In this document: in pieces, positions 152 to 63,346 of the stretch
Numbering within the stretch: position 1 is the first letter of the stretch
Layout of the letters: each line of letters starts with the position of its first letter
Source: Streptomyces tuirus
Lineage (GTDB): Bacteria; Actinomycetota; Actinomycetes; Streptomycetales; Streptomycetaceae
Direction of reading: 5' to 3'
DNA length: 64,000 bases
NCBI RefSeq assembly: GCF_014701095.1
Contig: NZ_AP023439.1
Coordinates: 5,506,001 to 5,570,000 of the forward strand
Made by a program: the position numbers and the translations under genes
The notes under the pieces: generated by a model
Databases searched by the model: none
What the model was told of the DNA's origin: nothing
The model's input: the letters and a program-made list of their open reading frames with translations, nothing else

Positions 152-3100
152 TCAAGGCCACCAGGTCAGCACGTCGTCGACCGCCCGGGTCAGCTCTTCT
201 CGCACCTCCTCACCGGCGACCGGCACGAGACGCGAGAGGTTGTCGGTGATCAGGGTGAGGGCTCTGTGCTGCGAGGTCCGGGACACGAGACGGCGTACGA
301 GGGCGACGAACTCCCGAGGCGAGCAACCGTGTTCGTCCAGGGCCCTGGCGAGGAGGGCGGTTGCCAGGTCGGCGTCGTCCGGAGCGAGGCCGACGGCCGT
401 GTCCAGGGACTCCCGGTCCACGTACGACACGAGTCTGAGCAGCTTCTCCGGACGCATGTCCCAGTCGACCCGGGCCAGGCAGTCCAGCGCCTCGGCCGGC
501 ACCGCGGCACGCTCCTGTTCGGGCAGCACGGACAGCAGGACGCAGTAGGCTTCCGCCCGCTCCCACACGTCGCTCACGGCTCGGATCACGGTGAGTGCCT
601 CGGGCACCCGCTCGGCCATGCCGTCAGGGAACCCGGCGCGCATCGGCGGCACGGCCTCCGGCAGCCAAGGCTGCCAGGAGCAGGCGAGTGCCGCCTCGTA
701 AGCCTCTTGCGCGACGGTCATGCGCTGTTCGGCCGGAACACGGGGCACCAGCGAGCTGAGCGCGGGAGCGCGGAGCGCGGCGTCTTCGAGGGCCCGTCCC
801 GCCGCCAGGGCGTCGCCGATCAGCCGGCCGGGGAGGTACGGGATCAGCGAGATGAACAGCGTCGGCACGCTCGATCTCCCGTCTGCGTCCGCGAGTGCCG
901 CCAGGACCTCTTCGTGAACGTCGTCCGGCAGGCGCGGGCCCAGGACGCTCAGGTCATGGACCCGTACCCATTCGTCCTCCGCCAGCCATTGCCGCACCGC
1001 CTCCACCACCAGGTTGCGCGGGAGGTACGCGACCACCTGCGCCAGCACCGACTGATGGGCGTAGAGGAGCCGGCCTGGCTCGGAGAACCACTCCGCTGCG
1101 GCCCGCCGCCGGTCGTCGTCCGAGAGGTGGGGCAGGAGCCGTTGGCGCAGCGTGTGGGGATCACTCGCGGCGCTCCGCAGCAGTTCCAGCGCCTGCCGGG
1201 CGCCGGCCGGCCGCTGTGCGGCGGGAAGGGTCGGCAGCAGGGCGGTCTGTCCGGTGGCCAGCGCGGTGGGGGTGCCGACCACCTTGGCGACCTCGAGCGT
1301 CTCCGCCGCCCACGAGGCCCGCTCGTGCGCAGGAAGCCGGTCCACCAGCGCGGCCAGGTGGATCACCCGCGCGTTCGAGGGCGTGAAGAGGGCGTCGTTG
1401 AGCGCTTCCTTCAGCTGGGAAGGGGTCACATAGGGCGCAAGCCGTGCCAGCACGTGCTGGTTCAGGCGCGAGCGGGAGGCGAGGATGTCCGTGACAGTCG
1501 CTGTGCGGATCTCCGGCGACAGAAGAGGCAGGAGCATGCTCAGCGCGCCTGCTCGTTCTCCCGGCTCGGCGGCGGAACGAGCTCGCGCCAGGGTTTCCGC
1601 CAGCAACGCCTCGCCCTGTTCCGCGGGCAGCACCGGGAGAAGAACCGCGCAGTCACGCGCACGTGCTCGGACGTATTCCGGGGGACGGGTGTCGGCGACG
1701 GCCGCGGCGAGCGCCGCCTTCTGCTCCTCCGGGGACAGCAGGGGCAGCAGGGCCTCCCAGGCGCCGGTGCGCTTCGGAACGAAGTCACCGCGCAGCAGTG
1801 CGTCCTTCGCCTCGGCCAACGCGTCGTCCCGCACCTGACCGGGCAGCAGCGGCAGGAGAGAGACCAAGGCGCTGATGTTGTCGGCCGTGCACCAGTAGTC
1901 CTCATCCGAGCGCATCTCGTCGAGGGCGCGCAGGGCGATCCGCTGCCGCATGCCGGCGGGTGCGTGTACGGCCGTGGTCGCCAGCAACTGACCTCGCAGC
2001 CCCCCTCCTGAGCACTCCAGAGCCGCTGCCGCGGCCTCATCGGCCACTGCCGCCCGACGATCCTCAGGCAGGTGCGGTATCACCAGCGCGGGGGAGAAGT
2101 AGTGGTGGCCGTTCAGGCTGCTGCTGGACACGTAGTCGCAGACCCGCACCGCCTCCAGTGCTTCCTCACAGGCCGACAGTCGCAGGCCGCCGATCAGATG
2201 GGGCTGGAGCGCGAGCAGAGCCCTGAACCGATCCCCTGGATGGGACAGGCGGCGCGCATGGGCCAAGCCACGTACGGCCGTCCACACACCCCGCTCGACG
2301 AGCTGCCCCAGGAGCTCCGGCCCCACGCTGTCGGTGTGGCTGGCGACGCTCGCCGCCATCAGCCGGTAGCGCAGTTCCTCGGCCAGGGCCATTGCCGGGA
2401 TGCGCCGTTCCAGGGCCTCATCGGTGCGTCGAACGGCATCGCGCCGGGCCAGTTCCACGTCGTCGAGGAAGGTGTCAGGCGATCCCGCGTACTCATGGGC
2501 GCTGAACCAGATGTTCTGCGCCTGCCGGCCCCCGGGCGGTGACTCAGCCGCCAGCAGCCGGCTCAGACCGGTGCTCCAGTCCGCCTGAACCATGTGGTGA
2601 CCAAGGTGGCGGAGCGCGTACCCGCCGTCGACCGAGGCCAGTGCCGGGTCCGCGGCAAGCAGGGCCAAGGACGCGCCGCCGTTGTCGTCGCCGAGCCCGC
2701 CGAACTCCGTCACATGGCGTTCGGCCATCCGCCGGTGGGCCCGGGCGACGCTCTCGGCGAGTTCCGCGGCCAGGACCTTGAGACGGTCGTCCTGCACCTC
2801 GTACAGCACTCCGCCGAAGAAGCTCCGCGCGGTGGCGTGATACAGCTCGTACCGCCGTCCCCAAGGGCCGTCGTCCGCGGTGAGGAAGGGGCGTATCACC
2901 AGATCGCACCACTGCCGCACCGCCTCGCGGTCATCGACTCCGGAGAGCCGGCACAGCGAGCTGTAAGGCAGGGGCTCGCGAGCGGCCACCAGTGTCGCCA
3001 GTATGTCCCTGCCGGTCCGTGCCCAGCCCGGTGCCTCCTGCCAGCGCGTCAACTGCCGGGCGTAGTAGCCGGACAGGTCGGCGGGCAGCGAACTGAGTTC

Positions 3101-3970
3101 GTCGACCGGCTGCTGGCCTGTGCCGAGGGCAGCGAGCACGTAGCGCAGGTAGACCCACACCCCGCCTGACCGTTCGACCAGCAGGGGGATCACCTCGTCG
3201 GCGCTCACGCCCGTTGCGGCCAGCCGTCCCGCCACCGGATCGGCCCGTACGGCCCGGTCCAGGTACTGCCGGACGTCTGCCTGGTTGCGTGTGTCGGCCC
3301 GGTCGATACGGACGACACGCGAGGGCGACTCCGAGTAGGCAGGCCGGCTGCCGGTGCGGTAGGTGCCCACCACGAAGGCGCCTTCGGGGAGCAGCGAGGG
3401 CAGCCCCCACGGCATGCCGCCGTCCGGAGCCTCCGCCTCGTCGGCCCCGTCCATCACGAGCACCAACGGCCCGTTCGCGGCGCGGGCTTGCTCGGCGGCC
3501 TGGGTGAGCAGGGCGTCGAAGCCCTCCGGCTCCGACACCCAGTCAGGCAGCATGCCACCCGGCGCGAACTGCGCGGACAGCCCGTATCTGGTGATCAGTT
3601 GGGCCGCCACGTTGCGCAACCCCACGCGAGCCGAGCCGCCTTGGGCGTGGCGGGCGAAGTGCGACACATAGCCGCGTTCACGGACCAGCCAGGCCGCCAG
3701 CGCGGTCTTGCCCAGACCGGCCTCCGCCTCCACCCAGAGGAAGCCGCAGGCCCGCTCCTGGAGAAAGGCGTCGACGTACGCCACCAGCCAGTCGCGGCCC
3801 GTGAACTGCGCCACCCCCACGTCGCTGAAGACCTTGTGCGTGTTCTTGAGCGCAACCGCCAAGGGAACGGCCGAGGAGCTGAAGACGGGATTGGTCATGA
3901 TCGGACCGTGGGCATCGCCACCGACCGCCACCGAGGCCTCTCCGTGGGCGCCGGTCCGCTGGAACGTCAC
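152..3970 (-). CDS. STAND/NACHT-type NTPase with a long helical-repeat C-terminus
   Basis: 1272 residues, GTG start that overlaps the stop of the upstream gene (GTGA, 3970-3967), so translation is probably coupled. Residues 13-24 hold a small glycine-rich motif ([12 protein letters not shown]). A P-loop ATPase domain opens with FTGRDW near 56. Walker A is EAEAGLGKTAL (81-91) and Walker B is LVLVMDGADE (169-178), as in NACHT/STAND signal-transduction ATPases. From about residue 500 to the end there are degenerate alpha-helical units, often with an LLPxLPxE(Q/R) signature, which suggests a HEAT- or TPR-like sensor solenoid. No effector domain (protease, TIR, nuclease) is evident; the effector may be the membrane protein encoded just upstream. 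The ligand is unknown. The family assignment is firm; a role in biological conflict or stress sensing is inference. Confidence 0.75.
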   Translation of the reverse strand: MTFQRTGAHGEASVAVGGDAHGPIMTNPVFSSSAVPLAVALKNTHKVFSDVGVAQFTGRDWLVAYVDAFLQERACGFLWVEAEAGLGKTALAAWLVRERGYVSHFARHAQGGSARVGLRNVAAQLITRYGLSAQFAPGGMLPDWVSEPEGFDALLTQAAEQARAANGPLVLVMDGADEAEAPDGGMPWGLPSLLPEGAFVVGTYRTGSRPAYSESPSRVVRIDRADTRNQADVRQYLDRAVRADPVAGRLAATGVSADEVIPLLVERSGGVWVYLRYVLAALGTGQQPVDELSSLPADLSGYYARQLTRWQEAPGWARTGRDILATLVAAREPLPYSSLCRLSGVDDREAVRQWCDLVIRPFLTADDGPWGRRYELYHATARSFFGGVLYEVQDDRLKVLAAELAESVARAHRRMAERHVTEFGGLGDDNGGASLALLAADPALASVDGGYALRHLGHHMVQADWSTGLSRLLAAESPPGGRQAQNIWFSAHEYAGSPDTFLDDVELARRDAVRRTDEALERRIPAMALAEELRYRLMAASVASHTDSVGPELLGQLVERGVWTAVRGLAHARRLSHPGDRFRALLALQPHLIGGLRLSACEEALEAVRVCDYVSSSSLNGHHYFSPALVIPHLPEDRRAAVADEAAAAALECSGGGLRGQLLATTAVHAPAGMRQRIALRALDEMRSDEDYWCTADNISALVSLLPLLPGQVRDDALAEAKDALLRGDFVPKRTGAWEALLPLLSPEEQKAALAAAVADTRPPEYVRARARDCAVLLPVLPAEQGEALLAETLARARSAAEPGERAGALSMLLPLLSPEIRTATVTDILASRSRLNQHVLARLAPYVTPSQLKEALNDALFTPSNARVIHLAALVDRLPAHERASWAAETLEVAKVVGTPTALATGQTALLPTLPAAQRPAGARQALELLRSAASDPHTLRQRLLPHLSDDDRRRAAAEWFSEPGRLLYAHQSVLAQVVAYLPRNLVVEAVRQWLAEDEWVRVHDLSVLGPRLPDDVHEEVLAALADADGRSSVPTLFISLIPYLPGRLIGDALAAGRALEDAALRAPALSSLVPRVPAEQRMTVAQEAYEAALACSWQPWLPEAVPPMRAGFPDGMAERVPEALTVIRAVSDVWERAEAYCVLLSVLPEQERAAVPAEALDCLARVDWDMRPEKLLRLVSYVDRESLDTAVGLAPDDADLATALLARALDEHGCSPREFVALVRRLVSRTSQHRALTLITDNLSRLVPVAGEEVREELTRAVDDVLTWWP

Positions 3971-17730: not shown

Positions 17731-17976
17731 TCACGTGACGGAACCGGCCCGGGGCGTGAACCCGGCCTCCAGGGCACGGAGATGAAATGGAGGTCGGCCG
17801 CCCCGGAACAGGGGGGGTGGTTCCGGGGCGGCCGTACGGACCGGAACGCCGCGCGCCCCGGGGGGTTTGGGGCGGGCGACTGTCCGATCGGTGAGGAGAT
17901 CCAGAGCCTCAGGCTCCGGTTGTGTGCGCGAGGGCACGACCAGGTCGAAGCTGGGGAGGCCCCGGCCTGATGTCAC
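17731..17976 (-). CDS. possible small protein, doubtful
   Basis: 81 codons from a GTG with AGGGGA 6 nt upstream, a good ribosome-binding site. The first third (for example GLPSFDLVVPSRTQPEPEAL) looks protein-like; the rest is Pro/Arg-rich and runs through the hairpin at 17795-17834. I recognise no homologue. It lies in the otherwise empty 494-bp stretch 17680-18173. It may be a short regulatory or precursor peptide, or chance. Confidence 0.25.
   Translation of the reverse strand: MTSGRGLPSFDLVVPSRTQPEPEALDLLTDRTVARPKPPGARGVPVRTAAPEPPPLFRGGRPPFHLRALEAGFTPRAGSVT
17795..17834. terminator. strong GC hairpin in the gabT-PAP2 spacer
   Basis: A 15-bp perfect stem (17795-17809 with 17820-17834) around a 10-nt loop. 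It can act on minus-strand read-through from gabT before it reaches the PAP2 gene. Confidence 0.5.
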
Positions 17977-18104
17977 CCACAGTCCCCTGCGGGCGGGGTG
18001 TATCTCTCATCTGGGTAGAACCTACGACAGGGCCGGCGCGCAGGACAGGCCGTCGGGCCCCCTGTCATCCACCTCGCACACCTTCTTCACACGCTCTGCC
18101 GCTC

Positions 18105-19508: not shown

Positions 19509-19759
19509 GCGGGGCTCCTGGGGTGGTGCGGATGGTCTGTACGGACGCTTGGCTTCTTTTCTCGCAGGCTAGGGCGGAGGGAGGGGGGTGGGCATGCTCC
19601 ATGTGGGCGTTGTCGGCGGGGCGCCTTGTCCGGGGTGGACATGGCCGTCACGTCGTCTGCTGCCCACGCCCCGGCCGCGTAAGCGGTGAACTCCCCAGGG
19701 GAGGGCGTTAGATTGGCTCGCTGATGGTGGACGGAGCGGCTGGTCAGGGGGCAAGGGCG

Positions 19760-21892
19760 ATGGACAGCGACGGGACGCAGGACGCGCGGGGTACGCATGC
19801 GAGTCCCGTGCCGCGCCCGGCGGGGCCGCCGGAGGTGCCGGCGATGCCTCCCCGGCCGCCCCGGGCACCGGCGACGCCGCCGCTGCCGGACGGGTCGGCG
19901 TTCCTCACCTGGCTGCGCGCGCCGCGCCCCGACGCCGCGCCGGGCGTGTGGCGGTTCGGGCACCGGCCGCGGCCCGCGGAGGAACCCGAGGAGATCCCCA
20001 CCCGGCAGCTGCTCAGCGGGGCGCTGATCGCCTTCCTCGTGGGATGGCTCGTCTGGTCGCTGCTGCAGAACGGGTACCTCGGCACCTGGTGGTGGGTGCC
20101 GTTCGACCTGATCGTCCCCGACGCCTGGCGGGGTGGCGACAGCGACCTGGGGGAGACCGGGACGTTCATCGTCTACGAGGGCTATGAGCTGCTCGTCGCC
20201 CTGGGCATCATGATCGGGGCGGCCCGGCTCGGCCGCTGGGGCGAGGTGTGGCGCCGCTTCGTCACCCCCCGCTTCCGCCGCCCGGAGGCCCAGGAGCCCC
20301 GTACGACCCCCGAGGACGACCCGGCGCAGTGGAACGAGCTGCGCGCCGCCGGGGCCCCCGACGCCGCCGAGCGCCTCGCCACCGAGGCCCGCTCCGGGCT
20401 GATGCGCGACGTCGACCACGCCCGGATCCTGCGGGCCTGGCAGGGCGTGCGCACCGGACGGCACAGCCTCGCCGCCTTCAGCGGCGCCGTGCTCAAGGAC
20501 GGCGCCGCCGCGTGCCTGCACCCCTCCGGGGAGCGTGACCTGCCCGCCCGGCTCGCCCGGCACGACCTCGTCACCGGACAGGTGCGGCTCGGGACCACCG
20601 TCGACGACGCCCGCAACCCGTACGCCTACCGCGGCACCGGCCTCGCCCTCGGGCCGGACCTGCTCGGCACCTCGCTCGTCGCCGTCGGCCCCGCCGGATC
20701 CGGCAAGACCGGCACCGTCGTCCGTCCCCTCGCCGAGTCGCTCTGCCTGCACGCCCTCGCCGGGCGGGCCGCCGTGGTGGTCGTCGGGGCGGCCGGCGCG
20801 GGACTCGGACCGGCCGACGCGTACGACGTGGTCGTGCGGATCGGCAACCAGGAGTCCGAGTACGACCTCGACCTGTACGGCGGCGCCACCGACCCGGACG
20901 AGGCCGCGGCCGTGCTCGCCGAGGCGCTCGTCGGGGACCTCGCCGACCCGCACCCCGGCAGCGACGGCCGCCGGTCCACCACCGTCCTCGCCCAGCTGCT
21001 CGGGCCGTTCCGGGCCGTGCACGGGCGCTTCCCCTCCGTACCGGAGCTGCGGCAGCTGCTGGACGGCGCGCCGGGGCCGTTCGCCGCGCTGCGGCAGGGG
21101 CTCCAGGAGGCCGGGCAGGAGTCGCTGCTGCGGGAACTCGACGCCCGCGAGCGGCAGATGGGGCAGCCCGGGGACGCCGGAGGGGTGCTCGGCGATCGTG
21201 TCGCGCTGCTCGACCGGCCGGCCTTCGCCGGGTTCTTCGACACCTCCGGGCAGTCCCGGCCCTTCACGCTCAAGGCCCTCGACCACCCGGTACGGGTGCG
21301 CATCGACCTGCCCCAGCGCGGGCACGCCGACGCCTCCAGGATGCTGGCCCGCCTCGTGCTCGCGCAGTTCACCGCGAGTGTCGCCGTACGCGAGGACCGG
21401 TCGCTGTTCGCCTGCCTGCTGCTCGACGACGCGACCGGGGTGGTGACGCCCGAGGCCGTGCGCGGCATCCAGCGGCTGCGGTCCGGCAACGCCGGGGTCG
21501 TGCTCACCCTGCGCACCCTGGACGACGTGGCCCGGCCGCTGCGCGGGCCGCTGCTCGGCGCGACCGGCTGCAGGATGGCGCTGTCGGGGCTCACGCCCTG
21601 GGACGGGCAGGACTTCGCCGAGGTGTGGGGCAAGGAGTGGACCGAGGCCCGCGACGTCACCGACCGGCAGATCATCGCGGAGACCCCGGCGGGCAAGGCC
21701 GTGCACATGCTGCGCCGGGTCATCACCGGCAAGGCACCGACCGCGCGGGCGGTGACCGTGCGGCAGGTCGAGCGGGAGCGCTGGTCCGCCTCCGAGCTGG
21801 CGCACGCCGTGCCGGCGGGGCACGCGGTGCTGTCGCTGACCGACGTCAAGGGCGAGCACGCGCCACCGCTGCTGGTGGATCTGCGGGGCTGA
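19760..21892 (+). CDS. membrane-anchored ATPase resembling type IV coupling proteins (VirD4/TraG/FtsK class)
   Basis: 710 residues from ATG 19760 (AGGGGG 8 nt upstream). An ATG at 19724 lies 8 nt after a TAGATT -10-like box and could be a leaderless start, adding 12 residues. A Pro-rich N-terminus is followed by two membrane segments (about 84-104 and 143-157). A P-loop domain carries Walker A VGPAGSGKTG (309-318) and Walker B ACLLLDDATGV. A late block, LTPWDGQDFAEVWGKEWTEARDVTDRQI, recalls coupling proteins. No conjugation or type IV secretion genes are nearby, so the role is open: DNA or protein translocation, or a Streptomyces-specific membrane process. Confidence 0.7.
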   Translation: MDSDGTQDARGTHASPVPRPAGPPEVPAMPPRPPRAPATPPLPDGSAFLTWLRAPRPDAAPGVWRFGHRPRPAEEPEEIPTRQLLSGALIAFLVGWLVWSLLQNGYLGTWWWVPFDLIVPDAWRGGDSDLGETGTFIVYEGYELLVALGIMIGAARLGRWGEVWRRFVTPRFRRPEAQEPRTTPEDDPAQWNELRAAGAPDAAERLATEARSGLMRDVDHARILRAWQGVRTGRHSLAAFSGAVLKDGAAACLHPSGERDLPARLARHDLVTGQVRLGTTVDDARNPYAYRGTGLALGPDLLGTSLVAVGPAGSGKTGTVVRPLAESLCLHALAGRAAVVVVGAAGAGLGPADAYDVVVRIGNQESEYDLDLYGGATDPDEAAAVLAEALVGDLADPHPGSDGRRSTTVLAQLLGPFRAVHGRFPSVPELRQLLDGAPGPFAALRQGLQEAGQESLLRELDARERQMGQPGDAGGVLGDRVALLDRPAFAGFFDTSGQSRPFTLKALDHPVRVRIDLPQRGHADASRMLARLVLAQFTASVAVREDRSLFACLLLDDATGVVTPEAVRGIQRLRSGNAGVVLTLRTLDDVARPLRGPLLGATGCRMALSGLTPWDGQDFAEVWGKEWTEARDVTDRQIIAETPAGKAVHMLRRVITGKAPTARAVTVRQVERERWSASELAHAVPAGHAVLSLTDVKGEHAPPLLVDLRG

Positions 21893-35124: not shown

Positions 35125-36024
35125 CTACAGCCAGCTCGCGAACTCCAGCAGCAGCTCCGCGTCACGCGGCCGTCCGACCCGCCCCGCCCGCACGCCCGAC
35201 TCCACGGCACGGAACAGCGTCCAGCCCCGCAGCCGCTCCTGGTCCACGTCCAGGGACTCCGCCAGCCGCTTCACCCGGCGCCGGGTGGTGCCCGCGCCGG
35301 ACGGCTGGGCGATCAGGTCCTCCACCCGGTCCCGGACCAGCCGGGCCAGATCGAAGGCACACTCGCCAACCACCGGGTCGGGCCCCACCGCCAGCCACGG
35401 CATCCGATCCCCGCCGAGCACCTTGCTCTGCCGGAACGTGCCGTGCAGCAACCGGTGTTCGGGCGGCGCGGCCAGCAACTCCTCGCGCGCCGCGAGCGCC
35501 AGACCGACCAGCGGGGCCACCTCGGGATCGGCCTGGGCCCGCGCCCGCATCGCCTCGGCCTGCCGCCCGGTCCGGTCGGCCACGGTCTCGAAGGGGAAGT
35601 CGGCGGGCGGCTCCACCCACAGCCGCCGCAGCGTCCCAGCCGCCTCCAGCAGCGCCTTCGCCTCCGGCAGCGACCGCACCGACACGTCCGGATGCAGCCG
35701 CTCCAGCAGCAGGACCCCTTCCGCGGAGACGGGTTCGAGCAGCTGCACGGCACCCCGCCCGGCCCAGTGCGCCAGCGCGGCCCGCTCCGCCTCCGGGCGG
35801 GCCCGGGGCGGTGCCAGCTTGAGCACGGCGGGCGTCCCGTCGGCGGCCCGCACCAGCACGACCAGGCTGCTGCGCCCGCCGGGCACCTGCACCCGCTCCA
35901 CGGTCAACTCGCGTAGCGCGACGGCCTGCTGCGCCGCCTCGGGCAGCTTCTCCAGCCAGTCGTCACCGTCCGGCGCCGTCTCACCGAGCGCCCTGACCAG
36001 ACGCTTCGGCGGTTCGAAAACCAT
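35125..36024 (-). CDS. APH-fold protein of the streptomycin/hydroxyurea kinase type, predicted pseudokinase
   Basis: 299 residues. The fold and order match APH(6)/hydroxyurea phosphotransferases: a small ATP lobe with the lysine retained in VLKL (about 69), and a late GECAFDLARLVRDRVEDL helix. The catalytic loop, normally HGDxxxxN, reads HGTFRQSK (194-201). The metal-binding IDPKP segment reads VGPDP (213-217). Both key aspartates and the asparagine are gone. It is therefore unlikely to phosphorylate anything and may bind a ligand or a protein. It is last in a minus-strand trio with a DUF4439 protein and a lipoprotein, 48 bp after the former. Confidence 0.75.
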   Translation of the reverse strand: MVFEPPKRLVRALGETAPDGDDWLEKLPEAAQQAVALRELTVERVQVPGGRSSLVVLVRAADGTPAVLKLAPPRARPEAERAALAHWAGRGAVQLLEPVSAEGVLLLERLHPDVSVRSLPEAKALLEAAGTLRRLWVEPPADFPFETVADRTGRQAEAMRARAQADPEVAPLVGLALAAREELLAAPPEHRLLHGTFRQSKVLGGDRMPWLAVGPDPVVGECAFDLARLVRDRVEDLIAQPSGAGTTRRRVKRLAESLDVDQERLRGWTLFRAVESGVRAGRVGRPRDAELLLEFASWL

Positions 36025-42878: not shown

Positions 42879-43331
42879 GTGGCCGACAACGCGCGGGCTA
42901 AGAGGCTGGCGGACCTCATCCGAGAGGTGGTGGCCCAGAAGCTGCAGCGCGGGATCAAGGACCCGCGGCTCGGCTCGCACGTCACCATCACGGACACCCG
43001 GGTCACGGGTGACCTCAGGGAGGCGACCGTCTTCTACACGGTGTACGGGGACGACGAGGAGCGCGCGGCGGCCGCCGCCGGCCTGGAGAGCGCCAAGGGC
43101 ATCCTGCGCTCCGAGGTGGGCCGGGCCGCCGGTGTGAAGTTCACGCCGACCCTGGCCTTCGTCATGGACGCCCTCCCGGACAACGCCCGCACCATCGAGG
43201 ACCTCCTCGACAAGGCGCGCCAGTCCGACGAGAAGGTGCGCGAGGCGTCCGCGGGCGCCACGTACGCCGGCGAGGCCGACCCGTACCGCAAGCCCGAAGA
43301 GGACGACGAGACGGACGACAGCGCCGAATGA
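42879..43331 (+). CDS. rbfA: ribosome-binding factor A
   Basis: 150 residues from GTG 42879 with AAGGAGACGG upstream. KH-like fold with IREVVAQKLQRGIKDPRL, VTITDTRVTGDLREATVFY and the end of the core FVMDALPDNARTIEDLLDKA. An acidic Asp/Glu tail follows. It is a 30S assembly factor that helps process the 16S rRNA 5' end. It overlaps truB by 4 bases. Confidence 0.95.
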   Translation: MADNARAKRLADLIREVVAQKLQRGIKDPRLGSHVTITDTRVTGDLREATVFYTVYGDDEERAAAAAGLESAKGILRSEVGRAAGVKFTPTLAFVMDALPDNARTIEDLLDKARQSDEKVREASAGATYAGEADPYRKPEEDDETDDSAE

Positions 43332-44233
43332 CCCAGAAGCACACCACGCCCGACGGCCTTGTCATCGTCGACAAGCCGTCGGGCTTCACTTCGCACGACG
43401 TCGTCGCCAAGATGCGCGGCATCGCCAGGACGCGACGCGTCGGGCACGCCGGCACCCTCGACCCGATGGCGACGGGCGTCCTCGTCCTCGGCGTCGAGAG
43501 GGCCACCAAGCTCCTCGGCCACCTCGCGCTGACCGAGAAGGAGTACCTGGGCACCATCCGGCTCGGGCAGAACACCCTCACCGACGACGCCGAGGGGGAG
43601 ATCACCTCCTCCACGGACGCCTCCAAGGTCACCCGCGAGGCGATCGACGCCGGCATCGCCGAGCTCACCGGCGACATCATGCAGGTGCCGTCCAAGGTCA
43701 GCGCCATCAAGATCAAGGGCGTGCGGTCCTACAAGCGAGCGCGCGAGGGCGAGGAGTTCGAGATCCCGGCCCGGCCCGTCACGGTCTCCTCCTTCGGCGT
43801 GTACGACGTCCGGGACGCCGTCGCGGAGGACGGCACGGCCGTACTCGACCTGGTCGTCTCGGTCGTCTGCTCCTCCGGCACCTACATCCGGGCTCTCGCC
43901 CGTGACCTGGGCGCCGGCCTGGGTGTGGGCGGTCACCTCACCGCCCTGCGCCGCACCCGCGTCGGCCCCTACAAGCTGGACGCGGCCCGCACGCTCGACC
44001 AGTTCCAGCAGGAGCTGACCGTGATGCCCGTCGCCGAGGCCGCCACGGCCGCGTTCCCCCGCTGGGACGTCGACGTCCGGCGGGCCAAGCTGCTCACCAA
44101 CGGCGTACGGCTGGAGATGCCCGAGACGTACGCGGGCGCCGGGCCCGTCGCCGTCTTCGACCCCGAGGGCCGCTTCCTCGCGCTCGTCGAGGAGCAGCGG
44201 GGCAAGGCCAAGAGCCTGGCCGTCTTCGCCTGA
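43328..44233 (+). CDS. truB: tRNA pseudouridine(55) synthase
   Basis: 301 residues from the ATG that overlaps the rbfA stop. VDKPSGFTSHDVVAKMR opens the protein. The catalytic aspartate is in GHAGTLDPMATGVL. Further TruB blocks are KEYLGTIRLGQNT, QVPSKVSAIKIKGVRSYKRAR and CSSGTYIRALARDLG. It makes pseudouridine 55 in the T-loop of tRNAs. It ends the rimP-truB gene cluster. Confidence 0.95.
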   Translation: MTQKHTTPDGLVIVDKPSGFTSHDVVAKMRGIARTRRVGHAGTLDPMATGVLVLGVERATKLLGHLALTEKEYLGTIRLGQNTLTDDAEGEITSSTDASKVTREAIDAGIAELTGDIMQVPSKVSAIKIKGVRSYKRAREGEEFEIPARPVTVSSFGVYDVRDAVAEDGTAVLDLVVSVVCSSGTYIRALARDLGAGLGVGGHLTALRRTRVGPYKLDAARTLDQFQQELTVMPVAEAATAAFPRWDVDVRRAKLLTNGVRLEMPETYAGAGPVAVFDPEGRFLALVEEQRGKAKSLAVFA

Positions 44234-44308: not shown

Positions 44309-44495
44309 TCCCCCCTCGGTTCCCCCACCCCTAGGGTGTATCCAGCCGCCCCCGCTCCTTCACCCGTCCGAGCGGGCGCTCGGAGTGAACCGGGGGAGCG
44401 GAAGGGGGCGCTTTCGCGGAGCGATCTGTCCCGCTGATCATCCCGCCCCTACCGTCGAACACAAGGGCACGGGTGTACGGCGGGGAGGCTCGACG

Positions 44496-47400
44496 ATGGC
44501 GTCGCGGAACGGGTCCCGGGAGACGGACGACAGCCCAAACGGCTTGCCGGACCGCCCCGGGACAGCGGGAATCGAGGACGGGGCGGCCCCCGCGGACGCC
44601 CTCGTGCGGATCCACGACCTGGCCGGCCGCCCCCGCGGCACCGGCTTCCTGGCCGACCACCACGGCACGCTGATCACCAGCCACGAGGCCGTCGACGGCC
44701 TGCCCAGGCTCGTCCTGCACGGCGCCGGGGACCGCCGCCGGGTGGTGTCCGCCGACGCGGTCACCCCACTGCCCGCGCTGGACCTGGCGCTCGTCCGGAC
44801 CGAGGGGCTCGGCGTGCCTGCGCTGCCCGTCACCGTGCGGGAGGGGACCGGGACCGGCGCCTACGTCCGGATCGCCGCCGGAGGCTGGCGCGAGGCGCGG
44901 GTGCTGGGCCCGGCCACCGTGACGTACGCGGCCACGGACCGCTGTCACCGCCTCGACGGCGTGCTGGAGCTGGCGGTCGGCACGGCGGGGCGGGACGCGC
45001 TGCGGCTCGGTGGCGGAGCGGCCGGCGGCCCGGTGCTCGACGCCGGGACCGGAGCCGTCGTCGCGGTCCTCGGCACCGCGCTCAGCTCCGACCACCGCGA
45101 CGTCGGGTTCGCCGTGCCGCTGCGGGCCCGGATCCCCGGAGCGGCGGGGCCGCTGGGCGAGCTGCTCGCCGAGAACGCGGCGACGGTCCCCGCGTACGGC
45201 GCGGACCTCAACCTGGCCGGGGTGCTGGAGCTGACCGGCGCCGCGATGGCGCTGGAGGGCCCGCCCGACGGCCCCGGTGTCCCGCCACCGGTCGAACGGG
45301 CGGCCGTGGCAGCCGAGTTCACCGCGTTCGTGGACGGCCCGGCGGCCGTGCTCGGCCTGGTCGGAGCACCGGGCAGCGGCCGGACGACGGAACTCGCGGC
45401 GCTCGCCGCGCGGCGCCGGCGAGCCGCGTGGCCCACGCTGTGGTTGCGCGGCTGCGACCTGTGGGACGGCGACACGTCGGTGGCGGACGCGGCCCGCCGG
45501 GCGCTGGAGCGTGCCGCCCCCGCCGTGTTGGCCGCCTCCGCATGCTCCGGTCCCGGCGACATCACGCCCGATCGCCTCGCCCACCTCACCCGCTCTCTGG
45601 GCCGCCCGCTGCTGCTCCTCCTCGACGGCCCCGAGGAGATGCCACCGGGCCTGGCCCGGCGGCTGACCGACTGGACGGACGGGACCGCGCGGTGGCTGCG
45701 GGACACGGGAACGCGGCTGGTGGTGGCGTGCCGGGCGGAGTACTGGGAGACCGCGTCCTTCCCCGCGGGGCCGTGCGTGCGGCTCGGCGACCTCACCGAG
45801 GACGAGGCCGGTCGGGCGCGCCGGAGCCACGGCATCCCCGATCACGCCCTCGTCCCGGCCGACGCGCGGCATCCCCTCGCCCTCGGTCTCCTCGCCGAGG
45901 TCCTCGGGACCGTCTCCGCACCCCCGGAAGGGGCCGCGATCGACCGGCACGACGTCTTCACGGCCTACCTGGACCTGATGTCCCTGCGCATCGCCACCCG
46001 GCTGGCCACCGGCAACGGCCTGCACGGCACGGCCGTACGCCGGCTGGCCGCCAAGGTGGCCGGGCAGGTGCACGAGGCCGCCCGGCGCAGCCTCGGCCCG
46101 GGGTCGGGGGACCTCGACCGGGAGGCGTTCGGGGAGGTGTTCCCGTGGGGGCCCGCCCCGGAGCGGCTCGGCGGCTGCTCGGGCTGGGCGTCGGCCGTGC
46201 TGGCCGAGGGCCTGCTCGTGCCCGCCGGCGCCGGCTACCGCTTCGCGCACGAGGGGCTCGCCGACTGGCTCCAGGGCACGCACCTCGACCTCGACGAGGC
46301 CCTGCAGGCCCTCGTCCACCGCGGCGAGGAGGCGCAGTCCGACCCCGTGCCGCACCACCGCATCGGACCGGTCGTCCAGGCCCTGCTCTGCCTCGCCCGC
46401 CAGCACGGCGCCGGCCAACCCGCCTCCCGCCTGGCCGACCTGGTGCACGCCCTGGACGCCGATCCCTCCTCCTGGTGGGCTGCCCGGCTGCTCGCCGGGA
46501 CGCTGTCGGCCCTGCCCGACGCGGCGCCCTACGCGGAGGTGCTGCGGCTGCTCGCCGACCGGATCGTGGCCTGGCGGCGCCAGGAGCGGCCGGTGCCGGA
46601 GGAGCTCGGACCCGCCTTCTGGACCGGCCTGCGACTGCCCGAGGAGACGCGCTGCGCCCTGCTGCGGCGGCTGGTCCACGCCGACGGGCCGCCGTGCGAG
46701 GCCGGGCCCCGCTTCCTGGACGCCGTCGCCGCACTCCTCGCCGCCGACCCCACCGCCGTGCAACCGCAGCTGGCCCGCTGGTTCGACGACGAGCAACCGC
46801 TGCCCGCCACCCCGCACGCGACCGTCGCCACCGCCGCCCAGGCACTGCTGCACACCCACCGCCACGGCGCCCTGGACGAGCTGGCGGACGTCCTCGTCGA
46901 CAGCGCCCACCCGAGGGCCGACGAACTGCTCGCCGTCCTGACCGAGGAGGAACCGTCAGCGGTGTGCCAGGCCGTCGACCGGTGGGCGCGCGACGAGCGG
47001 TCCGCCCGGCGCAGCGCGGCGGTGGCGCACGGACTGCGCGTCGCGCCGCACGTGAGCACCGGAGGCGACCGCGCCCTCCTGCGCTACACGGCCCTCACCC
47101 TGCTCGCCCGCCCCACCGACCGCGCCCTGCACGGCGGCGCCCTCGCCCTCCTCGTCCAGGACCCCCACACCCGCGCCCGCTACCTCCCCCGGGCGCTGGA
47201 GCACTTCGCGGCGGGTGACCCGCGGTTCTCACCGGACGCGCTGGCCGGAGCCCTGCTGACCGACCCCGAGCCGGTGCTCGGGGCCTTCGCGGCCCGGCTG
47301 GAGCGGCCCGACGCGGAGGAGGCCCTGCGGGCACTGGCCGACGCCACCCCGCCCGGCCTGGCCCGGCGGGTCGCCGCGCTGGTGTGCCGGGCGGCGCGGC

Positions 47401-47900
47401 AGCGGCCGGAACTCGCCGGGCAGGCGGCCGCCTACGCCGACCAGCGGCTCGACCGGGGCCCCGCCGCCCGGCCCGTGCTCCTGCCGCTGGTCACCGGCCT
47501 GCTGGAGGACGGCTCGGTACGGCTGCGCTGCGCCCTCGCCGGCGTCCTCAGCCCGCCCGGCGTCCCCGCCTCGCGCCCGCTGCGCCGCGAACTGCGCGAC
47601 GCGCTCCTCGCCCGGGAGCACGACACCGACGTCCTGGACGCGCTGCTGAACGCGGCCGCCCGCAACGGCGGTGACGACCTGCGCGACCTCGTCCACCGCA
47701 TCGGGCTGCTCCTCGTACGCACCCCGGAGGGCGCCACGCGCTTCGACCGCGCCCTGGTCGACCTGGGCCGCCACGTGCCCGGCTTCGCCGCCCGCGCCGC
47801 CGCCTGGCTGACCGACGCGCCCGTGGAGTGGGCGGCGCTGGTCGGGCCCAGTTCCCACCGGATGATCGAGAACCTGGCGGGCGCGGGCGTCCCCGCGTGA
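44496..47900 (+). CDS. trypsin-like domain fused to a STAND-type NTPase, with degenerate active sites
   Basis: 1134 residues from ATG 44496 (GGGGAGG 7 nt upstream). Residues about 33-215 form a trypsin-like domain: His63 in ITSHEAVDG and Asp96 in LPALDLAL are present. The serine of GxSGGP is alanine (GAAGGP, Ala176), so proteolysis is unlikely. A P-loop domain follows with VGAPGSGRTTEL (289-300), where the Walker A lysine is arginine, and Walker B LLLLLDGPEEM. The C-terminal half is Leu/Ala/Arg-rich and helical, probably a HEAT- or TPR-like solenoid. Intact relatives pair a protease with a STAND switch in stress or conflict systems. This copy may be a scaffold. It has its own leader between truB and ribF. 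Confidence 0.7.
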   Translation: MASRNGSRETDDSPNGLPDRPGTAGIEDGAAPADALVRIHDLAGRPRGTGFLADHHGTLITSHEAVDGLPRLVLHGAGDRRRVVSADAVTPLPALDLALVRTEGLGVPALPVTVREGTGTGAYVRIAAGGWREARVLGPATVTYAATDRCHRLDGVLELAVGTAGRDALRLGGGAAGGPVLDAGTGAVVAVLGTALSSDHRDVGFAVPLRARIPGAAGPLGELLAENAATVPAYGADLNLAGVLELTGAAMALEGPPDGPGVPPPVERAAVAAEFTAFVDGPAAVLGLVGAPGSGRTTELAALAARRRRAAWPTLWLRGCDLWDGDTSVADAARRALERAAPAVLAASACSGPGDITPDRLAHLTRSLGRPLLLLLDGPEEMPPGLARRLTDWTDGTARWLRDTGTRLVVACRAEYWETASFPAGPCVRLGDLTEDEAGRARRSHGIPDHALVPADARHPLALGLLAEVLGTVSAPPEGAAIDRHDVFTAYLDLMSLRIATRLATGNGLHGTAVRRLAAKVAGQVHEAARRSLGPGSGDLDREAFGEVFPWGPAPERLGGCSGWASAVLAEGLLVPAGAGYRFAHEGLADWLQGTHLDLDEALQALVHRGEEAQSDPVPHHRIGPVVQALLCLARQHGAGQPASRLADLVHALDADPSSWWAARLLAGTLSALPDAAPYAEVLRLLADRIVAWRRQERPVPEELGPAFWTGLRLPEETRCALLRRLVHADGPPCEAGPRFLDAVAALLAADPTAVQPQLARWFDDEQPLPATPHATVATAAQALLHTHRHGALDELADVLVDSAHPRADELLAVLTEEEPSAVCQAVDRWARDERSARRSAAVAHGLRVAPHVSTGGDRALLRYTALTLLARPTDRALHGGALALLVQDPHTRARYLPRALEHFAAGDPRFSPDALAGALLTDPEPVLGAFAARLERPDAEEALRALADATPPGLARRVAALVCRAARQRPELAGQAAAYADQRLDRGPAARPVLLPLVTGLLEDGSVRLRCALAGVLSPPGVPASRPLRRELRDALLAREHDTDVLDALLNAAARNGGDDLRDLVHRIGLLLVRTPEGATRFDRALVDLGRHVPGFAARAAAWLTDAPVEWAALVGPSSHRMIENLAGAGVPA

Positions 47901-48070
47901 CGGGCCTCCCGGGTGCCCGCCCGGCGTACGGGGTCGTGCGCCCTGTCACAGCCCCCATGCCGATGCTGGCAGGAGACACCCGGCATGGCACCCTTAGACC
48001 TGCGCACGAGGCAATCACGAAACAACGACCGGACACGGCTTCGACGAGCTTTCGACAAGGAGCAGGCACA

Positions 48071-49024
48071 GTGCAGCGCTGGCGTGGCTTGGAGGACATC
48101 CCCCAGGACTGGGGGCGCAGCGTCGTCACCATCGGCTCCTACGACGGAGTGCACCGCGGGCACCAGCTGATCATCCGGCATGCCGTGGACCGCGCCCGGG
48201 AGCTGGGCGTGCCCGCCGTCGTCGTCACCTTCGACCCGCACCCCAGCGAGGTCGTCCGCCCGGGCAGTCACCCGCCGCTGCTCGCCCCGCACCACCGCCG
48301 CGCCGAACTCATGGCCGACCTGGGCGTGGACGCGGTGCTCATCCTCCCCTTCACGACCGAGTTCTCGAAGCTGTCCCCGGCCGACTTCGTCGTCAAGGTC
48401 CTCGTCGACAAGCTGCACGCCAAGGCGGTCGTCGAGGGCCCCAACTTCCGCTTCGGCCACAAGGCCGCCGGGAACGTGGAGTTCCTGTCCACGCAGGGCA
48501 AGACCTACGACTTCGAGGTCGAGGTCGTCGACCTGTACGTGACGGGTGCGGCGGGCGGAGGCGAGCCGTTCTCCTCCACGCTGACCCGGCGGCTGGTCGC
48601 CGAGGGCGACGTCCAGGGCGCGGCGGAGATCCTGGGCCGCCCGCACCGGGTCGAGGGTGTCGTCGTCCGGGGCGCCCAGCGTGGGCGCGAACTGGGCTTC
48701 CCGACGGCCAACGTCGAGACCCTGCCGCACACGGCCATCCCGGCCGACGGTGTGTACGCCGGCTGGCTGCACGCCCAGGGGGAGGCGATGCCGGCGGCGA
48801 TCTCCGTGGGGACGAATCCGCAGTTCGAGGGGACCGAGCGCACGGTGGAGGCGTATGCCATCGACCGGGTGGGGCTCGATCTGTACGGGTTGCATGTCGC
48901 GGTCGACTTCCTGGCGTTCGTGCGGGGGCAGGCGAAGTTCGACACGCTGGACGCGCTGCTGGTTCAGATGGGGCAGGACGTTGAGAAGTGCAGGGAGTTG
49001 GTGGCGGCCGAGGGGGCTGCCTAG
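48071..49024 (+). CDS. ribF: bifunctional riboflavin kinase/FAD synthetase
   Basis: 317 residues from GTG 48071, with AAGGAGCAGG upstream. The N-terminal nucleotidyltransferase domain has TIGSYDGVHRGHQLI and the FAD synthetase loops TFDPHPSEVV and EGPNFRFGHKAAG. The C-terminal riboflavin kinase domain starts near 185 with LGRPHRVEGVVVRGAQRGRELGFPTANV. It makes FMN and then FAD from riboflavin. The stop codon overlaps that of the convergent ABC gene in a shared CTAG. Confidence 0.95.
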   Translation: MQRWRGLEDIPQDWGRSVVTIGSYDGVHRGHQLIIRHAVDRARELGVPAVVVTFDPHPSEVVRPGSHPPLLAPHHRRAELMADLGVDAVLILPFTTEFSKLSPADFVVKVLVDKLHAKAVVEGPNFRFGHKAAGNVEFLSTQGKTYDFEVEVVDLYVTGAAGGGEPFSSTLTRRLVAEGDVQGAAEILGRPHRVEGVVVRGAQRGRELGFPTANVETLPHTAIPADGVYAGWLHAQGEAMPAAISVGTNPQFEGTERTVEAYAIDRVGLDLYGLHVAVDFLAFVRGQAKFDTLDALLVQMGQDVEKCRELVAAEGAA

Positions 49025-61819: not shown

Positions 61820-63346
61820 ATGGCATCTCGGCGCGACCAGCTCAATGCCTACACCTTCGCGAAGCGCCGCATGCTCGCGGCCTTCCTGCAGTCGTCGCCC
61901 GACGGTTCGGAGGAGGGCGCACCTCGTCCGTTGCGCGCGGTCGTCCCCGGCGCCATCGTGGGTGTGGTCGTCATGGCCGTCTTCGGGGCCTGGGGGATGT
62001 TCAAGCCCACCGCGCCCAAGGGCTGGGACGAGCCCAACGCCAAGGTGATCGTCGCCAGCGACTCGACCACCCGCTACGTCGTCCTGAAGACCGGCCAACA
62101 GGTCCAGCTGCACCCGGTCCTCAACATGGCGTCCGCGAAGCTGCTCCTCGACGAGGGCCAGGGCGACGTGGTGACCGTCGCCGAGTCCGTCCTCGACAAC
62201 GGCAAGATCCCCCACGGGGCCACCATCGGCATCCCCTACGCGCCCGACCGTCTCCCCTCGGCGTCCGAGGCGGGCGGCGAGAAGCGCTGGGCGGTCTGCG
62301 AACGCCGCAGCGCGGGCGGCGAGTCCATCCAGAAGGCGGCCCTGGTTCTGGCCTCCCGTGAGGTGCAAGCGACCGAGGGCAAGGACGAGAAACTGACGGG
62401 CGGGCAACTGCTTTACGTCGTGGCCCCTGACGGCAACCACTACGTGGTGGACGCGAGCGGACGCTCGTACCTCATCGACAAGAGCGACGAACTGCTGCTG
62501 CGCGCCGTCGTCGGCTCCGGAGGCAAGCCGCAGAAGGTCTCCCGTGAGTGGCTGGAGACCCTGCACGCCGGCGACCCGATCTCCTTTCCGAAGATCCAGG
62601 GTCAGATCGGTGTCGCGGCCGACGCCCCAGGCCAACTGGACGACCAGACCGACAAGGTCGGCATGGTCCTCAAGGCGTCCGACCTGAACAGCGACCAGTA
62701 CTACGTGGTGTTGCCCGGCCGGGTCGCCCCCGTCTCGGCCTTCGTCGCCCAACTCCTGCTGTTCAGTGAGGACCTGGCCTCCCTCGGCCAGGCCGGTGCA
62801 GCCAAGGACATGAGCCCGGGTGCGATCGTCCCCGGCAAGCCGTTCGGCACCGAGCACCGCTGGCCCACCCACGACCCCGAGCCCGTCAACGATGCCTCAG
62901 GCACCGCAGGAAGCCGCGGCACCGTCTGCAACGTCCTGCGCGGTGTCGACGCCGACTCGGGTGCCACGACCCTGAGCACCTGGGCCGGCACGGATTTCCC
63001 GGCCAAGCTCCCCACCGGCTCCTCCAGCGCCTATGTCACGCCCGGCTCCGGCCAGCTCTACCGCCAGTTCCAGGGCAGGGAGACCAAGGCCGGCCCTGTC
63101 TTCCTCGTCACCGACACGGGCCTGCGCTACGTCCTGCAGTCCAACGCCGACAGCGGCGCGGACGACGCCGGCATCGGAACGACGGCCAAGGACCGCCGGC
63201 AGGCCCAGCAGGAGGCCCAACAGGCCCAGACCCGGCTCGGCTACAAGGACGTGGACCCCGCGCCGATCCCCGTCGCCTGGTCGGAGTTCCTGCCCACCGG
63301 CCCACGCCTGTCGACGACGGCGGCACGCCAGCCGCAGGGTTCCTGA
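61820..63346 (+). CDS. eccB: type VII secretion protein EccB
   Basis: 508 residues. The start ASRRDQLNAYTFAKRRMLAAFLQ is diagnostic. A single membrane helix (about 42-60, VVPGAIVGVVVMAVFGAWGMF) is followed by a large extracytoplasmic domain with repeats: GQLLYVVAPDGNHYVVDASG, YYVVLPGRVAPVSAFVAQLL and GPVFLVTDTGLRYVL. Two cysteines (CER and CNVL) probably form the family disulfide. EccB is a core part of the ESX membrane channel. The mycosin gene follows after 9 bp. Confidence 0.93.
   Translation: MASRRDQLNAYTFAKRRMLAAFLQSSPDGSEEGAPRPLRAVVPGAIVGVVVMAVFGAWGMFKPTAPKGWDEPNAKVIVASDSTTRYVVLKTGQQVQLHPVLNMASAKLLLDEGQGDVVTVAESVLDNGKIPHGATIGIPYAPDRLPSASEAGGEKRWAVCERRSAGGESIQKAALVLASREVQATEGKDEKLTGGQLLYVVAPDGNHYVVDASGRSYLIDKSDELLLRAVVGSGGKPQKVSREWLETLHAGDPISFPKIQGQIGVAADAPGQLDDQTDKVGMVLKASDLNSDQYYVVLPGRVAPVSAFVAQLLLFSEDLASLGQAGAAKDMSPGAIVPGKPFGTEHRWPTHDPEPVNDASGTAGSRGTVCNVLRGVDADSGATTLSTWAGTDFPAKLPTGSSSAYVTPGSGQLYRQFQGRETKAGPVFLVTDTGLRYVLQSNADSGADDAGIGTTAKDRRQAQQEAQQAQTRLGYKDVDPAPIPVAWSEFLPTGPRLSTTAARQPQGS

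Follow-up and report, generated by a model that had tools for sequence, protein, structure and literature searches.

A pseudoprotease-NACHT protein with an invariant Walker A arginine at the truB-ribF locus of Streptomycetaceae

Introduction

An open reading frame between truB and ribF in Streptomyces tuirus reads as a trypsin-like protease fused to a STAND NTPase, yet the serine nucleophile of the protease is replaced by alanine and the Walker A lysine of the NTPase by arginine. Does this frame encode a damaged enzyme, or a protein in which these changes have been retained? A sequence-only reading had treated the two changes as one joint decay and proposed that selection acts on a non-catalytic role, such as scaffold, decoy or sensor. 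We analyzed the gene within a stretch of 64,000 nucleotides (positions 5,506,001 to 5,570,000 of contig NZ_AP023439.1, hereafter the window) and compared it with its orthologues. The finding proves genuine, of long standing and subject to selection, and we infer a function for the protein from its predicted fold and conserved motifs.

Results

A trypsin fold, a NACHT-type NTPase and a helical superhelix in one open frame

The gene (44496..47900, + strand) is a stop-free frame of 1134 codons, extending from an ATG at 44496 to a stop codon ending at 47900, with orthologues at the same place in more than 100 genomes; a GTG at 44385 is a possible alternative upstream start. Full-length AlphaFold2 modeling with an alignment of 45 orthologues yielded a mean pLDDT of 90.8, with low confidence for residues 1-31, which are not conserved among orthologues. 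In this three-part model, a trypsin fold resembling DegS and MucD is followed by an NTPase of the NACHT type and then by a superhelix made up entirely of helices. Foldseek searches with the whole model returned NLRP9 and NLRC4, DegS-type proteases and CAND1-type repeats. The predicted layout of the frame is an HtrA/DegS-like trypsin fold followed by a NACHT/STAND NTPase and a HEAT-like helical C-terminus. The trypsin-STAND fusion in an unbroken frame, first read from the letters, is thus borne out by the Pfam match to Trypsin_2, the NACHT matches of relatives and the fold matches.

The C-terminal part (residues 611-1134; 46326..47897, + strand) forms an alpha-helical, HEAT/ARM-like superhelix according to DSSP analysis of the AlphaFold2 model and the CAND1-type matches, and is most likely a candidate sensor of a partner. 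The single match among the PADLOC defence models, a weak one to OloA (E 6e-5), lies within this helical region. Matches in a viral structure library were limited to generic serine proteases and a single NLR-like protein from a phage contig. Promoter and terminator scans were empty, which says little in Streptomyces, and Rfam models detected no RNA elements near the gene. The sole Rfam family match in the window is the Streptomyces small RNA Scr5676 (17883-18012, - strand; 138.9 bits).

The NACHT domain carries an invariant arginine in Walker A

The NTPase region, which includes a winged-helix part (residues 228-610; 45177..46325, + strand), was also modeled alone (pLDDT 92.1, pTM 0.90), and Foldseek matched this model to NLRC4 (E 4e-9), NLRP7, Avs4 (8dgf), NLRP3, CED-4 and Apaf-1. 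Pfam did not detect a STAND or NACHT domain in the window sequence alone, but NACHT was matched by five of 32 relatives (best 1e-7) and, with the domain alignment, by six of 34 (best 2.8e-8), and nSTAND_NTPase5 by 10-11 relatives. Since a sequence profile compared with the PDB yielded generic P-loop matches only, the NACHT call is based on the relatives' Pfam matches together with the fold.

We examined the nucleotide-binding motifs in 204 distinct orthologous sequences, the set obtained after merging six duplicates between collections. The P-loop GAPGSGRTT (residues 290-298; 45363..45389, + strand) has invariant glycines at positions 293 and 295. The Walker B segment LLLLLDGPEE (residues 372-381; 45609..45638, + strand) retains D377 in all sequences and E380 in 202. 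Three further positions fit the STAND signature, with equivalences assigned by position: Arg268 in the PVER segment ahead of the P-loop (45297..45299, + strand; 204/204), which may correspond to the STAND GR motif; Pro460 in RHPLAL (45873..45875, + strand; 204/204), as part of a putative GxP-like motif; and His585 in RFAHE (46248..46250, + strand; 196/204), a candidate winged-helix histidine. The protein thus combines the STAND/NACHT fold with a P-loop, a Walker B motif, a GxP-like proline and a candidate winged-helix histidine, and departs from these NTPases at the canonical Walker A lysine. This position, Arg296 (45381..45383, + strand), is arginine in all 204 orthologues and lysine in none. 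The lysine-to-arginine change is therefore present as first described, except that the residue is number 296, not 295.

Other NACHT proteins of Streptomyces have lysine in 21 of 21 readable P-loops, taken from the strongest NACHT matches with a search pattern that permitted arginine as well; arginine hence marks the pseudoprotease-NACHT family. Codon 296 varies synonymously among the 204 sequences (CGT in 117, CGC in 55, CGG in 31 and CGA in one) while the amino acid does not change, which is direct evidence for purifying selection on the arginine.

Precedents for this substitution come from well-studied proteins. In human RAD51 K133R and yeast Rad51 K191R, ATP binding survives but hydrolysis is blocked (PMC7797033), and the K305R change in NOD2 destroys NF-kB activation, leaving no signalling (PMC3400628). 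Together with the conservation of the rest of the pocket, these cases suggest, as the simplest reading, a nucleotide-binding NACHT domain with poor cycling, although an arginine P-loop could also support slow hydrolysis or fail to bind nucleotide altogether. Alternatively, the arginine may be a tolerated Walker A variant, so that the NACHT would be an ordinary hydrolyzing STAND switch and the protease domain alone would be dead. The remaining nucleotide-site motifs, all intact and mostly invariant, are compatible with this idea, and a fixed arginine could be catalytically competent in this lineage; given the effects of the same change in RAD51 and NOD2 and the lysine kept by the other Streptomyces NACHTs, we nevertheless consider it unlikely.

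The protease site drifts within a conserved fold

The HtrA/DegS-like trypsin-fold domain (residues 36-225; 44601..45170, + strand) was modeled with a pLDDT of mostly about 90. Its chymotrypsin-like fold is supported by an above-cut-off match of residues 48-191 to Pfam Trypsin_2 (E 2.2e-7) and by structural matches to DegS, MucD and Rv3671c; the nearest PDB entry by sequence is the serine protease HhoA. His63 (44682..44684, + strand), Asp96 (44781..44783, + strand) and Ala176 within GAAGGP at the nucleophile position (45021..45023, + strand) are located exactly where they had been placed at the outset, and the copy in the window consequently reads H/D/A in place of the His-Asp-Ser triad.

These three positions differ widely in conservation. 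The histidine is retained in 192 of the 198 distinct orthologues readable there (97%), whereas position 96 is occupied by glycine (94 sequences), aspartate (86) or asparagine (16). At position 176, alanine predominates (142), followed by serine (21 of 202), valine (16), threonine (7), cysteine (6), isoleucine (6) and a few other residues. On a tree that used only alignment columns outside the protease, and with position 176 scored in three classes (serine, alanine, other), at least about 21 changes are required at position 176 and about 29 at position 96; these counts are approximate because many inner branches of the quick tree are weakly supported. By this measure, the protease site is evolutionarily free and drifting, with a complete triad kept by few members.

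It could be argued that the protease is active through another nucleophile, or active in some lineages, with the copy in the window being a dead allele. The conservation of His63 and the complete H/D/S triad in nine distinct orthologues mean that some members could be active proteases. However, alanine prevails at position 176 throughout Streptomyces, and the residue there has switched many times, including to valine, isoleucine and threonine. Moreover, at least two orthologues with Ser176 and a complete triad, L064 and L157, are nested in an alanine clade and look like returns to serine, and the triad there is accordingly no proof of activity. We therefore judge an active protease very improbable. 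Because the domain has lost its catalytic residues but retains its fold and a conserved active-site environment, it probably binds peptides or a partner without cutting.

The contrast between the two sites bears directly on the idea of a joint decay, which does not hold: the protease site drifts, while the Walker A arginine is fixed along with the rest of the pocket; the NTPase, then, is probably not dead but kept in an altered form. Likewise, of the two positions whose conservation was in question, Arg296 is invariant and Ala176 is variable.

The gene is a dispensable but stable resident of the truB-ribF locus

The gene is present in 127 of 150 Streptomyces genomes and in eight further genera of the Streptomycetaceae, which confirms the expectation of orthologues between truB and ribF and speaks against a strain mutation. 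In the first set of loci, truB and ribF flank the gene in the same order and on the same strand in 101 of 104 cases, with cut or broken loci accounting for the remaining three, and the same flanking is seen in the other genera, save for loci cut by the fetched stretch. About 15% of the sampled Streptomyces genomes are without the gene, which is hence dispensable. In all 20 genomes checked that gave no match, ribF follows truB directly; these absences are thus real, clean losses and not search failures. Among 297 Actinomycetes genomes drawn for a profile search, none outside Streptomyces yielded a full-length relative; the matches there were trypsin-only or P-loop-only, and within the limits of this sample the family appears confined to Streptomycetaceae. 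Judged from these comparisons, inheritance of the gene is vertical.

The upstream neighbor truB (43328..44233, + strand) was recognized from its translation and conserved synteny, and the downstream ribF frame (47828..49024, + strand) from Pfam matches to FAD_syn and Flavokinase. The start of the ribF frame overlaps the end of the gene, and the true ribF start is probably later. In S. coelicolor, truB is SCO5709 and under control of the main sigma factor HrdB (PMC6344877), and ribF is SCO5711 (PMC9282665). By position, the gene therefore corresponds to SCO5710, in a neighborhood expressed as housekeeping. The literature searched, which included few subscription journals, contains no mention of SCO5710.

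Pfam annotation of 20 window ORFs identified translation, flavin, oligopeptide-transport, type VII secretion and metabolic genes. Among them, a gene of the aminoglycoside/hydroxyurea phosphotransferase family (35128-36024, - strand; APH_6_hur, E 5.6e-81), named by family match only, is situated between a prolyl-tRNA-synthetase-like gene and rimP, and an EccB-type type VII secretion component (61820-63343, + strand) perhaps opens an ESX-like locus at the window edge. Two long predicted ORFs of 1272 and 722 amino acids (155-3970, - strand, and 19724-21889, + strand) show Streptomyces-like codon usage and have no Pfam match at 1e-5.

Kaur et al. (2020, PMC7159879) described MoxR-vWA ternary conflict systems in which STANDs lacking activity (iSTAND) carry peptidase domains, trypsin-like ones among them, at the N-terminus and in which almost all trypsin effectors are inactive, and the gene might be the third component of such a system that became separated from its partners. 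The plan of the protein is similar, but no MoxR or vWA domain was matched by Pfam in the 20 window ORFs scanned, the locus is fixed between truB and ribF, and hardly any iSTAND systems occur in actinobacteria (PMC7159879). This origin is highly implausible.

Old, shared substitutions in a protein subject to purifying selection

As had been expected, dN/dS values indicate purifying selection, with a median of 0.25 over 130 close pairs and 0.23-0.24 in each of the three parts. Residues 396-515 (window 45681-46040) reach 0.66-0.92 in the window's own clade, not exceeding 1, which could reflect relaxed constraint or a partner-facing surface. The orthologue states support the view that both substitutions are old and shared, and the presence of Arg296 in every distinct relative argues for an ancient trait held by selection, not damage. 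The normal codon bias of the frame, earlier offered as an argument for selection, is weak alone; the evidence is supplied by the cross-species comparison. A decaying pseudogene with strain-specific mutations or sequencing errors, as the missing genes and the few orthologue copies with frame breaks might suggest, is refuted by the full-length frame, the dN/dS value and states common to more than 200 genomes.

Selection for a non-catalytic role, as put forward in the sequence-only reading, is upheld in that the protein is under purifying selection and a non-proteolytic role is the best reading, but needs amending for the NTPase. A decoy role is unsupported: in a family search of the S. tuirus genome, Trypsin_2 and NACHT matches never occur in one protein, and a decoy of an active paralogue is rejected.

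Discussion

A proposed non-proteolytic scaffold or switch

We propose, with a probability of roughly 60%, that the gene product is an NLR-like pseudo-enzyme, passed on vertically within Streptomycetaceae, that serves as a non-proteolytic scaffold or regulatory switch. The N-terminal HtrA-like domain, no longer cutting, would act as a module that binds a peptide or protein. The NACHT domain, its pocket kept around the fixed arginine, most likely binds ATP or ADP with little or no hydrolysis, and the C-terminal superhelix most likely senses a partner, whose nature is a matter of speculation. Partner binding might then alter the conformation or assembly of the NACHT and thereby expose or cluster the pseudoprotease.

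A bolder version of this scaffold or switch is tentative: an NLR present throughout a bacterial lineage, at a housekeeping locus, whose arginine P-loop has been fixed as a functional, nucleotide-bound and non-cycling state and whose retired protease has become a peptide reader. Such a protein would be an immune-type receptor domesticated for cell physiology, perhaps translation or development.

Work on NLR-type proteins in bacteria has treated them as mobile genes for defence whose effectors are active. A doubly altered, vertically inherited member fixed next to truB and ribF allows the domestication of immune-type STAND proteins to be tested directly. It also presents a natural lysine-to-arginine P-loop held by selection, of a kind known mostly from laboratory mutants, in a well-studied genus in which S. 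coelicolor is routinely open to knock-outs.

Comparison with known systems

The protein shares features with several known groups. Residues 36-225 have the fold of the HtrA/DegS (S1C) proteases, but the catalytic serine is missing in most members, the aspartate is often glycine, and the domain is fused to a NACHT with no PDZ match. Similar to iSTAND proteins (PMC7159879), it comes from multicellular bacteria and has a STAND judged inactive and an N-terminal trypsin-like domain, as do some iSTAND members. In contrast to them, it belongs to an actinobacterial family at a fixed housekeeping locus with no MoxR or vWA neighbors and retains its P-loop with arginine; given the locus, the neighbors and a pocket intact save for the lysine, we do not file it under iSTAND. 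With the antiviral STAND and NACHT proteins of bacteria, such as Avs4, which is among the fold matches, and bacterial NACHTs, it shares the effector-NTPase-sensor layout, yet it differs in having no catalytic effector, a Walker A arginine and vertical inheritance at one locus, with no defence island. Finally, animal NLRs (NLRC4, NLRP3, NOD2) share the NACHT fold and provide the best structural matches, whereas the Streptomycetaceae protein has a HEAT-like helical repeat in place of the LRR, a pseudoprotease in place of the CARD or PYD, and an arginine P-loop.
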